A stretch of DNA of 24,662 bases from a virus, in the IMG/VR virus record IMGVR_UViG_3300025617_000112, positions 1 to 24,662 of that record; one strand, given 5' to 3'. The position numbers were made by a program, and so were the translations under genes. The notes under the pieces are model-generated. The model searched no databases. It was not told where the DNA came from and saw nothing but the letters and a program-made list of their open reading frames with translations. Of this stretch, positions 6,044 through 16,950 are shown piece after piece (position 1 is the first letter of the stretch; each line of letters opens with the position of its first letter).

Positions 6044-6994
6044 TTAGGCGTTGAAGACCAATGCCAAAGCTGACTCAGGACGTAATACCTGAATACCGTA
6101 GAGAGTGTCTGCTGTGAACAAATCACCCAAGTACTCTTGCTTGTACTGAGTTTGAGTGCGGACACCCATTTGCTCTGCGAATACCATAGCGTCTTTGTGA
6201 CCTAAGATACCAGCCTTGAGCTCGCCACCACCGGTAGCACCGTTTTCAGCGGCTGTCTCAGTGACAGGGCAGTTTGTAGAAACGTAGATTTGGATACCGT
6301 AAAGTGATCCAATGTTTCCATTCGCTACAGGCTGTCCAGATACGAAGTCTGAAGAGTTGTAACGATCGATACCACGAATAGTCTGAACGACTGAAGGCGG
6401 TACGACGAGGAAACGGTTGTCCATAGGAACATCGTTGTCGTCTAACTGCTTAACAGCGGCGCGTAAGCCAGCATCTGAGAAGATGTCAGCAGGAACTACA
6501 GTGTCAACAGCATACGCAGTCAAGCCTGTAGAAGCGTCCATGTAGAACGAGTTAGAGTGAATGAAGTCTGAACCAGAACCGTTGTCATCACCCAAGCGCT
6601 TAGCAAGTGTAAACAGATCAGTATCAACCTGCTTTGCAAGAGCGTAGCCAGCGTCTGAAGTGTAGAACTGACGCATAGAAGCGAGAGCCTGTACATCAGT
6701 GATGTCTTCGATCAAACGTGAGTACTCGTAGTGCTTGTCTACGGTTACCTGTACTTCTGACTCAGTTGCCGCAATCAGAGTTACCTGAGTTTCAGCAGTC
6801 TTTGCAGATGCATCGCCACGAGTAGGCTTAGGGATGTGAAGTGTGTCGCCCTTCTTGCCAGTCATAGGCATACGGTTGACAAGGTTAGCAAGTACGAGTG
6901 ACTTCTCGTATGCCGCTACGATTTCATCGGACCAGATTTCTGGGATGAAAGTTGCACCAGTAGTATTGGTGACGTGGTTAGTACCAAGTGCCAT
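6044..6994 (-). CDS. Major capsid (coat) protein
   Basis: 316 residues starting MALGTNHVTNTTGATFIPEI, with ATG at 6994 and a strong AAGGAGAT site. The pattern is that of HK97-fold coat proteins of podoviruses: an N-terminal arm, then IWSDEIVAAYEKSLVLANLV at about 20-39, then GDTLHIPKP, then a TVDKHYEYSRLIEDI segment near 105. A central D-rich 'FLVVPPSVVQTIRGIDRY' segment (about 195-215) precedes a C-terminal QYKQEYLGDLFTADTLYGIQVLRPE strand set (about 282-306). The IPEIWSDEI.......LVLANLVNR opening is highly characteristic of marine podovirus coats. Gene order portal, scaffold, coat supports the call. It has its own SD and is followed by a terminator-like hairpin. Confidence 0.92.
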   Translation of the reverse strand: MALGTNHVTNTTGATFIPEIWSDEIVAAYEKSLVLANLVNRMPMTGKKGDTLHIPKPTRGDASAKTAETQVTLIAATESEVQVTVDKHYEYSRLIEDITDVQALASMRQFYTSDAGYALAKQVDTDLFTLAKRLGDDNGSGSDFIHSNSFYMDASTGLTAYAVDTVVPADIFSDAGLRAAVKQLDDNDVPMDNRFLVVPPSVVQTIRGIDRYNSSDFVSGQPVANGNIGSLYGIQIYVSTNCPVTETAAENGATGGGELKAGILGHKDAMVFAEQMGVRTQTQYKQEYLGDLFTADTLYGIQVLRPESALALVFNA

Positions 6995-7012: not shown

Positions 7013-7819
7013 CTATTTGACACGACCTTCAGCGTATGCCTGCATAATCTCATCTGAGAGTTGCTGATACCGCTTAGGGTCAGTTTGCATGAGTTTAATA
7101 ATATCGGCACGACGATAGATCTTCCGAGATGGAGCCTCTCCTGATCCTTTTGCCTTACCTGTCGATGCGGCCTTCGCTTGGTTTTTACGATCCTGTTTCT
7201 GAACCTCTTCCGTCTGCTTAACGATGTCCTGACGTTCTTTCCATAAGGTTAAGAGTTCATCAGCGGCATCATAATCAAACTTCTGATCTGCCTGTGCATA
7301 TAACTGCTGGCGTACTTTAGAAGCCATAATCCATTCGCCAAACTTTTCATCTTTTAATACATCTTGATAATCAGGATGATTTTGATTAAGCTGTGCTAAA
7401 ATGGCAGACTGCTTTGCCTGTAAGTTATATTGCTCAGCTTCCTTCATCTTAGGATGCGAAGCGAGTTTACGCTCGATGTAGGCGTCAGGGTCATCAAAGA
7501 AATCAATCTCTGTTTCCTCTTGTGCCTGTGGGCTTTGTTTTTGTGTTTCAAGTTGTGTCTTGACAAAGTCGTCAACGATTTTCCGCAGTTCCCCAACTTC
7601 AGAGCTCTGACGTCCGATTAGCTTCTCAGCTTCCTCGTGCATCTTTGCAATCTCTAAGGCAGATTTGCCTTTGTATTTGTCTGGGACATCTTCCTCAACC
7701 TCGGCAGTTACCTCTTCAGGTTGCTCTGGTTCCTCTGCAGGCTCAATAGTTTCCTCTGCAGGTAGTTCTGCGAACTCTTCCTCGTTGTCGTCTTCTAGAC
7801 GCTCGATAAATGTTGCCAT
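7013..7819 (-). CDS. Capsid assembly scaffolding protein
   Basis: 268 residues. The N-terminal ~60 residues are extremely acidic (EDDNEEEFAELPAEETIEPA and onward, with many EE and PE). Next come a KYKGKSALEIAKMHEEAEKLIGRQ motif (about 49-72) and helix-rich, Gln/Lys-rich segments, with a basic end (KAKGSGEAPSRKIYRRADII, about 221-240). The motif KY.GKS..E...M...AE.LIG....E.G.LR is typical of podovirus scaffolds, which line the inside of the procapsid and leave or are cleaved before packaging. It sits directly upstream of the coat gene (18 bases), the usual scaffold position. A small dyad lies just ahead of its ribosome-binding site (GGAG, about 9 bases from the ATG). Confidence 0.88.
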   Translation of the reverse strand: MATFIERLEDDNEEEFAELPAEETIEPAEEPEQPEEVTAEVEEDVPDKYKGKSALEIAKMHEEAEKLIGRQSSEVGELRKIVDDFVKTQLETQKQSPQAQEETEIDFFDDPDAYIERKLASHPKMKEAEQYNLQAKQSAILAQLNQNHPDYQDVLKDEKFGEWIMASKVRQQLYAQADQKFDYDAADELLTLWKERQDIVKQTEEVQKQDRKNQAKAASTGKAKGSGEAPSRKIYRRADIIKLMQTDPKRYQQLSDEIMQAYAEGRVK

Positions 7820-7833
7820 TATTAAAAACTCCG

Positions 7834-7847
7834 TGCTAGAATTAGCA
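7834..7847 (-). promoter_or_regulatory. Small perfect dyad ahead of the scaffold gene
   Basis: In the minus-strand mRNA TGCTA-ATTC-TAGCA forms a 5-bp hairpin with a 4-base loop. It ends just before CGGAG, the ribosome-binding site of the scaffold gene. It lies in the only gap (39 bases) between the zinc ribbon and scaffold genes and could tune scaffold translation. The short stem makes this weak. Confidence 0.35.
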
Positions 7848-7858
7848 TTATGGATATA

Positions 7859-8068
7859 TTAGATCTTAGCGGCTCTCTCGTGATCTCTTGCCCACTTATC
7901 ATCAGCATCAGGCCAACCTGTGCCATTAAACTTCGTAGAGACTGGAGAGATTATCCGCTGTGCGGTTTCGCCACAATCCAAGCAAGTAACAAACTCATCA
8001 TTAGAGTCTATCCAGTGCTCTTCAATTTTGTGGCATGTGGTACATCTAAAATCATGTCTCTTCAGCAT
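7859..8068 (-). CDS. Zinc ribbon protein, FmdB-like
   Basis: 69 residues from ATG 8068 (MLKRHDFRCTTC). A GGAGG sits 6 bases upstream, so I reject the upstream in-frame ATG at 8086. Two CxxC pairs (CTTC at residues 9-12, CLDC at 29-32) form a zinc ribbon like that at the start of FmdB-type proteins, followed by G.TAQRIISP and a C-terminal TKFNGTGWPDADDKWARDHE segment. Small zinc ribbons of this kind recur in the head-gene cluster of marine phages between portal and scaffold; their role is unknown. It overlaps the preceding gene by 17 bases. It could bind nucleic acid or be a small head accessory. Confidence 0.75.
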   Translation of the reverse strand: MLKRHDFRCTTCHKIEEHWIDSNDEFVTCLDCGETAQRIISPVSTKFNGTGWPDADDKWARDHERAAKI

Positions 8069-8303
8069 TCTCAGCCTCCAAGACATAATCGTAGTTGTTC
8101 TTTATACCTGTCTCAAAAGATTGCATCTTTAGTAAGACAGCCCGCTCACCTTTGAGGTAAGCCAAGTGGTCTGAATCCTTGATATCCTCAATACGATGAG
8201 TATCAAGCGTTTCAGTAATATCATTAATAAATTGTTTCCAACCATCAGAAAGAAACAAATCAAAGTACCGTTCGTAGTACTTTTCCTCTTCGGAAGTCAA
8301 CAC
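8052..8303 (-). CDS. Conserved 83-aa head-cluster protein of unknown function
   Basis: Starts at a GTG (8303); a TTG at 8300 is the alternative and fits the AAGGAG site better (6-base gap). The only nearby ATG, two bases further up, is out of frame and hits a stop. The protein is acidic and helical: LTSEEEKYYERYFDLFLSDGWKQFI, then LDTHRIEDIKDSDHLAYLKGERAVLLKM, then NNYDYVLEAE. Proteins with the pattern EE..YYE.YFDLF...GWK.......L.......I....L.YLKG.......... are common between portal and scaffold in T7-like marine phages (from memory). It is the first gene behind the internal capsid promoter. Confidence 0.78.
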   Translation of the reverse strand: MLTSEEEKYYERYFDLFLSDGWKQFINDITETLDTHRIEDIKDSDHLAYLKGERAVLLKMQSFETGIKNNYDYVLEAENAEET

Positions 8304-8343
8304 ATTCTCCTTAGTTTCGGTGCGTTGCTAACTATATAGAAAT

Positions 8344-8372
8344 ATTCTAGCACAAATCGTGCCAAAAGTCAA
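8344..8372 (-). promoter_or_regulatory. sigma70-type promoter of the scaffold/coat operon
   Basis: On the minus strand TTGACT (8372-8367), a 17-base spacer and TAGAAT (8349-8344), with TGC directly before TAGAAT as an extended -10. Transcription would begin near 8337 and give a leader of about 34 bases. The -35 overlaps the stop of the 47-aa gene. The spacer itself contains TTGGCACGATTTGTGC (8365-8350), a copy of the motif repeated in the intergenic array, with dyad GCAC-n5-GTGC, so the promoter may be controlled by whatever binds that motif. Confidence 0.75.
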
Positions 8373-12965: not shown

Positions 12966-12994
12966 ATTCTATCATAGTTATCAACACAAGTCAA
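12966..12994 (-). promoter_or_regulatory. sigma70-type promoter of the left (structural) arm
   Basis: On the minus strand TTGACT (12994-12989), a 17-base spacer and TAGAAT (12971-12966), preceded by TGA as an extended -10. It is the same hexamer pair and spacing as the promoter at 8344-8372. A start near 12959 leaves a leader of about 32 bases before the AT-hook protein gene. A near-match to a DnaA box (TTATCAACA at 12978-12986, plus strand) lies inside the spacer. Confidence 0.75.
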
Positions 12995-13017: not shown

Positions 13018-13059
13018 TTAATAACAAGTTATTCACAGGTTATTAACAATTTATCCACA
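13018..13059 (+). repeat. Four 11-bp direct repeats with DnaA boxes, candidate origin
   Basis: TTAATAACA (13018), TTATTCACA (13029), TTATTAACA (13040) and TTATCCACA (13051) begin exactly 11 bases apart in the same orientation. The second and fourth match the bacterial DnaA box TTATNCACA perfectly; the others differ by one or two bases. One-turn phasing would place bound proteins on the same face of the helix. AT-rich DNA follows at about 13090-13135. The array sits at the point from which the two gene arms diverge. Confidence 0.6.
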
Positions 13060-13218
13060 TTTCAAAGGGTTATCGAGGGCTCTAGAGGCTATTTAGTATG
13101 GTTCTTTTCCTTATTTAATTTGGCTCTTTAGCAAATCTGTGCGGGAGCATGGAAAATAAAACTAGCAGTAAGGCCTCCCCCGGTACTAGGTAGACTCCAT
13201 AGCCTGTTTAGATCAGAG

Positions 13219-13383
13219 TTGGCACGATTCTTGCATGCTAAATAGTCTGCAGAGTTGGCATAGTTCTTGCATACTCTAGAGCCTGGAGAGTTGGCATAGA
13301 TCTTGCATACCCACCCGGTATAAAAATTGGCACGATTCTTGCAAGACTTTACAGCCTGAATAGTTGGCATAGTTCTTGCATGC
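13219..13383 (+). promoter_or_regulatory. Five tandem sigma54-type (-24/-12) elements, 36-bp period
   Basis: Near-identical 20-bp units start at 13219, 13255, 13291, 13327 and 13364 (spacing 36, 36, 36, 37). Consensus TTGGCAYRRTTCTTGCATRC; the third has ATC for TTC and the fourth ends CAAG. Each has GG, ten bases, then GC, with TGGCA before and TTGCA after, which is the sigma54 (RpoN) promoter core TGGCAC-N5-TTGCW. The 16-base spacers are partly alike (several contain AGCCTG or GAGAG before TTGG). All face right, toward the early genes, but the nearest gene starts 466 bases on. They could be promoters, decoys for RpoN, or sites for a phage DNA-binding protein. Confidence 0.7.
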
Positions 13384-13789
13384 AACTCTAAAGCGCCCAT
13401 AACTTTTCAGTTTATCACAGAACTCTAGAGTCTGTCTAGTCCTAGATCGATTGTATTTATTAATGGGTTTGATGTAGTCGATAGAGAAATAATATAGGCT
13501 AAATAGTTGTCAGAGTATTGAAATGTGAGTGTCGATGTGGCAGGCATTAGAGCTCTGAAAACTAGATCAACACTCTACCAATCTGTCAAATAACTTTGGT
13601 CTAATTGCAAAACCTGAGACGCATTCTAAGGCCCTCTGTCGGTCGATATCGCTCAACCGTTGTCTAGGTATTCAAAAAAATAGATCGTCGATTTCGATAT
13701 TTAGTTGTTGACAGAGTTTGACTAATCTGTTAATCGCGCATGCGTTCCTATTTATGCAATCCAGCCTAGAAATAATTTAAAATAAAGTG
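13384..13789. other. About 400 bp without genes
   Basis: No open frame longer than about 10 codons with a ribosome site was found on the plus strand, and no tRNA-like T-loop was seen. The stretch holds CTCTAAAG and CTCTAGAG motifs (13386, 13423), several GTCGAT/ATCGAT words, a CGCATGCG palindrome near 13738 and a weak TTGACA-17-TAATCG promoter-like pair (13708-13736). It may be a long leader of transcripts from the sigma54-like array, an RNA gene, or part of an origin. Confidence 0.5.
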
Positions 13790-16628: not shown

Positions 16629-16656
16629 CTTTACAATGCGAAATAGAGGTATATTT

Positions 16657-16950
16657 ATGGCTGGTAAGATCCAATGGTCACCACAACAGGTAGAACTATT
16701 AAAGAAACTATGGGAAGAGGGAGTCACGTCCGCCGACATAGGTCGAAAGGTAGGTAAAAACGCGGCTAGCGTTAGAAGTTATGTAAGACGCAACCGAAAG
16801 GCTCTAAAGCTCAAACAGCGTTCAGAGGCTCATAACCTACACTTGCAACCACGGGGTAACAAAGACTTTGAAAGGCTTTGGAGTGGAAGTGTTCCTAGAG
16901 GACATTGGATGATCACAAAAGCATGGGGTAAAGCATGTACCAAGACATAA
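16657..16950 (+). CDS. GcrA-like helix-turn-helix DNA-binding protein
   Basis: 97 residues from ATG 16657, which has AGAGGT 6 bases upstream. An ATG at 16636 would add 7 residues but lacks a good site. The N-terminus IQWSPQQVELLKKLWEEGVT, SADIGRKVGKNAASVRSYVR matches the helix-turn-helix of GcrA-family regulators (W..E.VELLK.LW.EG.SA..IA..LG...........). GcrA in alphaproteobacteria binds sigma70-RNA polymerase and acts at GANTC-methylated promoters. The classic GNAVIGK core is replaced by KNAASVRSYVRR, so this may be a more general phage homeodomain-like regulator. The C-terminal half is basic and not recognised. It is a good candidate for switching early transcription. Confidence 0.65.
   Translation: MAGKIQWSPQQVELLKKLWEEGVTSADIGRKVGKNAASVRSYVRRNRKALKLKQRSEAHNLHLQPRGNKDFERLWSGSVPRGHWMITKAWGKACTKT

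Follow-up and report, generated by a model that had tools for sequence, protein, structure and literature searches.

The window considered here, that is, the whole stretch of 24,662 nucleotides analysed, carries on its minus strand a late operon that includes the major capsid protein. The promoter of this operon reads, on the minus strand from 8372 to 8344, TTGACT-TTTTGGCACGATTTGTGC-TAGAAT; it combines recognisable sigma-70 -35 and -10 hexamers with a 17-bp spacer (8366-8350) and an extended -10. Behind it come some 35 nt of leader, AAGGAG as ribosome-binding site and then an 83-aa ORF. The earlier note called it the scaffold/coat promoter, which is correct inasmuch as both genes lie in the operon, but the first genes are the 83-aa ORF and then a 75-aa zinc-ribbon ORF. 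At the scaffold start there is also, on the plus strand (7813-7842), a good sigma-70-like promoter with GTGCTAGAAT, directed against the late genes. Between the early and late genes lies a region, hereafter the hub, with an array of five units (13219-13380; start spacings 36, 36, 36 and 37) that read TTGGCAYRRTTCTTGCA or close variants of it and match the textbook sigma-54 -24/-12 element. The features are as follows:

6044 to 6994, minus strand: major capsid protein, capsid operon
7013 to 7819, minus strand: scaffold-like ORF, capsid operon
7859 to 8086, minus strand: 75-aa zinc-ribbon ORF (below the Pfam cut-off), same operon as the 83-aa ORF
8052 to 8303, minus strand: 83-aa ORF, first gene after the capsid promoter, with homologues at the equivalent place in relatives
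8337 to 8338, minus strand: start sites predicted from geometry, 8338 for sigma-54 (19 bp past the motif centre) and 8337 for sigma-70 (7 nt past the hexamer)
8344 to 8349, minus strand: sigma-70 -10 hexamer TAGAAT, extended by TG at 8352-8351
8349 to 8365, minus strand: the "sixth copy", a sigma-54-type -24/-12 element TTGGCACGATTTGTGCT in the capsid (late) promoter spacer, 16.7 bits
8367 to 8372, minus strand: sigma-70 -35 hexamer TTGACT (TTGAC invariant in 58 distinct family promoters, themselves picked by TTGAC)
12966 to 12994, minus strand: second late promoter, TTGACT-N17-TAGAAT, upstream of the terS-like/AT-hook ORF
13219 to 13235, plus strand: array unit 1, TTGGCACGATTCTTGCA, 21.6 bits
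13255 to 13271, plus strand: array unit 2, TTGGCATAGTTCTTGCA, 18.8 bits
13291 to 13307, plus strand: array unit 3, TTGGCATAGATCTTGCA, 18.9 bits
13327 to 13343, plus strand: array unit 4, TTGGCACGATTCTTGCA, 21.6 bits
13364 to 13380, plus strand: array unit 5, TTGGCATAGTTCTTGCA, 18.8 bits
13790 to 13817, plus strand: early sigma-70-like promoter TTGACA-N16-TAGTAT, downstream of the array

The rule behind the sigma-54 start (19 bp from the motif centre) is that of PMC4591121, and both start positions are inferred from geometry. The terS label rests on position and on similarity among relatives, the protein being without a clear family match. The second late promoter of the window lacks a sigma-54 element, unlike the same promoter in some relatives. 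Four copies of a second repeat, ACTCTAGAGCCTG, are interleaved with the array units (13194-13434), and a G/T-rich element of the approximate form AAGTGTGnGnGTCTnTGTAGTACC follows the array at about 13520-13550; its equivalents in L004, L028, L065, L087, L089 and L097 are found in hubs of very different relatives.

Identity of the element in the promoter spacer

The 17-nt spacer of TTGACT-N17-TAGAAT is occupied by TTGGCACGATTTGTGC (8365-8350, minus strand), with one further T at 8349. The earlier note had seen here a sixth copy of the array motif, and this is borne out: the sequence shares 14 of its 16 bases with array units 1 and 4, including all of the first 11, and the GG-N10-GC spacing of sigma-54 sites is kept. 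Three matches to the array motif with at most three mismatches were found in the window, against 0.23 expected by chance.

Every position of the window was scored on both strands with a sigma-54 matrix built solely from the 50 intergenic E. coli ChIP-seq motifs of PMC4591121 (Table 1), with no phage sequences. The six best sites are the five array units (21.6, 21.6, 18.9, 18.8 and 18.8 bits) and the sixth copy (16.7 bits), which is thus rank 6 of about 49,000 positions; the next sites score 13.6 and then 10.9 bits. Since this external matrix ranks precisely these six sites highest, the array motif can be identified with the sigma-54 -24/-12 element, and judging from the sequence it is very probable that the element is of the sigma-54 type. 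The E. coli intergenic sites span 7.9-20.7 bits with a median of 15.8, a range that includes the sixth copy, and the array units, at 18.8-21.6 bits, exceed most of these training sites (PMC4591121). Over 100 simulated windows the mean score of the best site was 13.8 bits, with an overall maximum of 18.6, so that the score of the sixth copy could arise by chance in one window and the case for this copy rests on its position and conservation.

The sigma-54 consensus of PMC4591121 is TGGCACR-N4-TTGCW, with GG and TGC named as the important bases. All of these are kept in the sixth copy, the sole difference being the less important position -15, which is G and not T and counts against the sigma-54 reading. 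At 59 distinct hub sites of the family, TTGGCA is fixed and followed by Y and R, N4 is free, TGC is nearly fixed and the last position is A or T; GG and TGC are conserved and N4 varies, as in sigma-54 sites, but since the hub sites were chosen with the matrix, this tolerance pattern is partly circular. The phage sites thus resemble sigma-54 (RpoN) promoters in sequence, in GG-N10-GC geometry and in the positions at which variation is tolerated, and differ from those of E. coli (PMC4591121) in being phage-borne, arranged in tandem arrays and embedded in a sigma-70 promoter.

The GCAC-n5-GTGC dyad that had been proposed as an operator does exist at the sixth copy but is absent from the array units (GCAC/GCAT...TTGC), so that the proposal is not supported for the shared motif; of 14 distinct late promoters, two are C/G-symmetric, ten T/A-symmetric and two asymmetric. 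In MerR-type promoters a dyad lies in a spacer of 19-20 bp. The capsid promoter has in common with them a dyad between -35 and -10, whereas its spacer is 17 bp long, the dyad is missing from the array, and no MerR protein was seen.

Conservation and distribution among relatives

The relatives comprised 80 loci taken from IMG/VR at a TerL identity of at least 72%, all of them uncultured and most of the records fragments; there is no close named phage, a BLAST search of the late region against named phages having given no DNA match. Sites of at least 15.8 bits were counted in 81 unselected loci, with the 700 bp ahead of the terS-like gene as the hub and the 140 bp before the 83-aa ORF as the promoter region. 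Their density is 1.27/kb in the hub, 1.62/kb in the capsid promoter region (a value due in part to weaker matches whose -24 is the TGGTATAAT of the -10) and 0.014/kb elsewhere, that is, about 100 times lower. The many unrelated copies inside genes, which the earlier note had named as refuting its proposal, were therefore not seen. Twenty column-permuted matrices yielded next to nothing in the hub or promoter region and a mean of 1.8 matches in all the rest. The pattern TTGGCAYRN5TGCW matched 50 times in 30 records, largely chosen for the motif, and its reversal not once. Arrays with at least two copies occur in 14 of 53 hub clusters; the tandem arrays on phages have three to six sites, mostly at 25-39 bp spacing, and the copies mostly face the early genes, some convergent pairs about 4 bp apart being found in L004, L048 and L073. 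Tandem sigma-54-type arrays are also present in two 42 kb contigs (L084 and L088) whose TerL is at most 29% identical to that of the family, so that such arrays are not confined to it.

Nearly the whole family has, before the 83-aa ORF, a sigma-70 promoter of the TTGAC-N type whose spacer measures 17 nt and whose -10 is preceded by TG. In a search guided by the portal protein, and hence blind to the promoter, TTGGCAYR-N5-TGC was found at the same place and in the same register in all 13 relatives with a portal identity of 76-96%, and in none of those below 73% with a scorable promoter, where the sigma-70 promoter is still there. The first gene behind the motif is mostly only 52-62% identical across the 13 motif-keeping relatives. 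Among relatives the motif at the capsid promoter varies between CACG, CATA and CATG and between ATTT and AAAT, changes that sigma-54 tolerates, and the GGCA positions are unconstrained in 44 motif-free promoters. Mapped onto a tree of the portal protein, the motif defines a single supported clade with 24 rows, and L006 and L166 stand apart as two further gains; the tree includes some rows selected for the motif, the blind portal search being the unbiased version. A scan of viral contigs with the composite promoter pattern gave at least 120 matches with some 35 family loci, against 24 matches and no family member for a swapped-base control. A general enrichment of the composite in unrelated phages was considered and dropped: among the matches listed, the non-family share (of -10 matches, a rough count by eye) is no higher than that of the control.

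The element is present at further late promoters as well. L097 and L125 have it inside the spacer of the terS-side promoter, again in the +7 register; the contig of L097/L151 bears it at both late promoters, and in L103 (11662-11684, minus strand) the composite is found at a third late promoter, before an operon with a tail-type gene. In L098, L102, L105, L106, L158, L180 and L195, whose spacer copy is that of the 83-aa ORF promoter and which have no hub array, a reversed copy starts 22 nt before the -35 of the terS-side promoter. L029 shows this reversed arrangement, close ahead of the -35, at the promoter of the 83-aa ORF. The earlier observation that the motif points in the direction of transcription thus holds for the window, but not for this sister clade, whose copy at the other late promoter faces the opposite way. 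A +19 register in L022, L034 and L035 (GTGGTATAATATTTGCA, with the -24 over the -10) reaches only 15.8 bits, its TGGTA being dictated by the -10, and is regarded as suggestive; a third motif of the L105 contig lies within the DNA polymerase gene and looks like a coding coincidence.

NtrC-type and DnaA boxes in hubs of the family

The relatives' hubs were scanned with GCACY-N5-RGTGC, the core of the published NtrC box TGCACCAnnnTGGTGCA (PMC8743547). It occurs 32 times in the hubs versus twice in about nine times more other DNA, while the same dyad at spacings 0-4 and 6-11 was not found in the hubs at all. After merging of near-copies, 19 boxes remain in nine of 53 hub clusters; tandem dyads of this type were noted in the hubs of L006, L008, L011, L015, L021, L040, L052, L105, L106, L158 and L180. 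The hubs of L040 and L052 are similar to NtrC/sigma-54 nitrogen-regulated promoters (PMC8743547) in that a sigma-54 site facing the early genes lies some 200-240 bp downstream of the boxes, whereas in L008, L011, L015 and L021 they have no clear sigma-54 site nearby, which counts against the sigma-54 reading. A scan of the window found no NtrC-type box, so that it does not qualify as an NtrC-activated promoter. It also differs from the sigma-54 promoters of E. coli in that no activator gene was found there. Activator sites are unnecessary for sigma-54 binding.

DnaA boxes, TTATCCACA, number 75 in the hubs versus 15 elsewhere (about 45 times denser, up to ten per hub), and because of this enrichment the hub may also be a replication origin. 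Clusters of them are present in the window (13020-13060) and in the hubs of L006, L012, L025, L038, L039, L098, L102 and L195. A mutual exclusion between lineages of sigma-54 arrays and NtrC/DnaA boxes was considered and not upheld (p = 0.13 once near-identical hubs were merged).

Probable overlap of sigma-54 and sigma-70 promoters

Which factor would read the element? Neither a phage sigma-54 nor an activator gene was recognised in 16 phage records, several of them above 30 kb, in searches whose controls were positive. Since nothing of the kind was recognisable in these records, the enzyme would be that of the host, and the binder is probably the host sigma-54 polymerase. The earlier suggestion of one regulator for hub and late promoter fares well, the same element being present in both and one factor probably reading both. 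The host need not possess RpoN, which counts against the sigma-54 reading. Searches by tRNA, Rfam and TerL in genomes gave no host, the TerL search yielding two MAG contigs only. The relatives concerned, L091 and L092, lie in MAGs labelled Sphingobacteriales and Verrucomicrobiales; as their promoters are of the proteobacterial type, this placement suggests mis-binning.

Overlapping sigma-70 and sigma-54 promoters, one of the options offered earlier, emerge as the best reading from the matrix ranks, the relatives and the conservation. Bound sigma-54 holoenzyme forms a closed complex that depends on an AAA+ activator (PMC7057263), and E. coli sigma-54 represses overlapped sigma-70 promoters in vivo and with purified parts (PMC4551910). 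From the identity, place and conservation of the element, which can be read from the DNA, we infer the part of host sigma-54, its binding and the direction of its effect, and we consider a competition, or gated switch, at the overlapping promoters to be a reasonably probable reading. Host RNA polymerase with sigma-54 would bind the element superimposed on the sigma-70 promoter, so that the two polymerases would occupy the same DNA and compete, with predicted starts within 1 nt. The sigma-54 closed complex, unable to open without its activator, would by default block sigma-70 and restrain the capsid operon; an active host activator, of the NtrC type in some relatives, could let the sigma-54 polymerase initiate at this shared start. 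In the hub, the array would offer five tandem sites for sigma-54 polymerase, directed at the early genes. Motif-bearing promoters have the hexamers TTGACT and TAGAAT, versus the more ideal TTGACA and TATAAT of motif-free ones, and with the less ideal hexamers competition would be easier. As in the Class I/II sigma-54-repressed promoters of E. coli (argT, chaC, mdfA, patA; PMC4551910), the sigma-54 site overlaps the sigma-70 footprint, and the sixth copy has C at -12, as do all the repressed cases there. Those cases are host metabolic genes, whereas the present candidates are phage late promoters, in which a single register is conserved in a clade and returns at further late promoters.

It is possible, if rather unlikely, that the promoter is instead productively dual: sigma-70 would generally serve it, activated sigma-54 would contribute from the same start during stress, of nitrogen or another kind, and competition would be a by-product. 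The +7 register, with its nearly coincident predicted starts and its recurrence at three different late promoters, would fit such a use, as would the NtrC-type boxes of the relatives' hubs. Yet this register shares TGC with the extended -10, so that sequence economy alone could fix it, and the window has no NtrC-type activator site. Moreover, the reversed sites upstream of the -35, at the terS-side promoter of the L098 clade and at the 83-aa ORF promoter of L029, cannot make the late transcript, and they speak for competition rather than for a purely productive use.

A phage-encoded protein other than sigma-54 could recognise TTGGCAYR-N5-TGC and repress or activate the hub and late promoters, which we consider improbable. 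The early region does encode a small GcrA-like HTH protein and several uncharacterised ORFs, and convergent pairs about 4 bp apart would be odd for promoters. The tolerated variation, however, matches sigma-54 with a matrix that comes from E. coli, and the element lacks the symmetry of a dimer operator, that of the late copy being missing from the array. The GcrA-like protein (16636-16950), previously put forward as a candidate binder, does not track the motif: it is present in some motif-negative relatives and was not found in motif-positive contigs of 31-37 kb. Nor did support emerge for the AT-hook protein named beside it.

That the sixth copy is a chance similarity born of the TTTT...RTGC composition of extended -10 promoters is barely credible: TGC overlaps in part with the extended -10, leaving only GGCAY unexplained, one 16.7-bit site can arise randomly in a window of this size and the composite pattern has a non-family background among viral contigs, but such an origin is contradicted by conservation in all 13 close relatives despite their diverged first gene, by the freedom of the GGCA positions in motif-free promoters and by the family-free swapped-base control.

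Tailed phages are normally thought to time their late genes with regulators of their own, with a phage polymerase or with changes to the sigma-70 polymerase. The sigma-54 sites, together with the NtrC-type sites of relatives, suggest that in these phages late gene expression may be coupled to a regulatory circuit of the host: a widespread family of uncultured aquatic phages appears to put host sigma-54 sites both at the hub and inside late promoters. If so, the course of infection would depend on the nitrogen or envelope-stress state of the host, and sigma-54 closed complexes would serve as repressors of phage genes. The literature searched, outside most subscription journals, contains no description of tandem sigma-54 sites or of sigma-54/sigma-70 composites in phage late promoters.

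An unlikely but conceivable extension of the competition reading is a late switch coupled to replication, in which, once the phage has entered, closed complexes would shut the late promoter until the replicating five-site array titrated the limited sigma-54 polymerase and freed the promoter for sigma-70; more broadly, the family hub would be a collection of host-regulator sites (sigma-54, NtrC, DnaA) that differs by lineage. Hubs without sigma-54 arrays have other repeats, TTTAGTCATGACTAAA and TAAGTCTAACTGTTGTACTC, as observed in L035 (8423-8632), L080 (2266-2424) and L083 (8713-8863).
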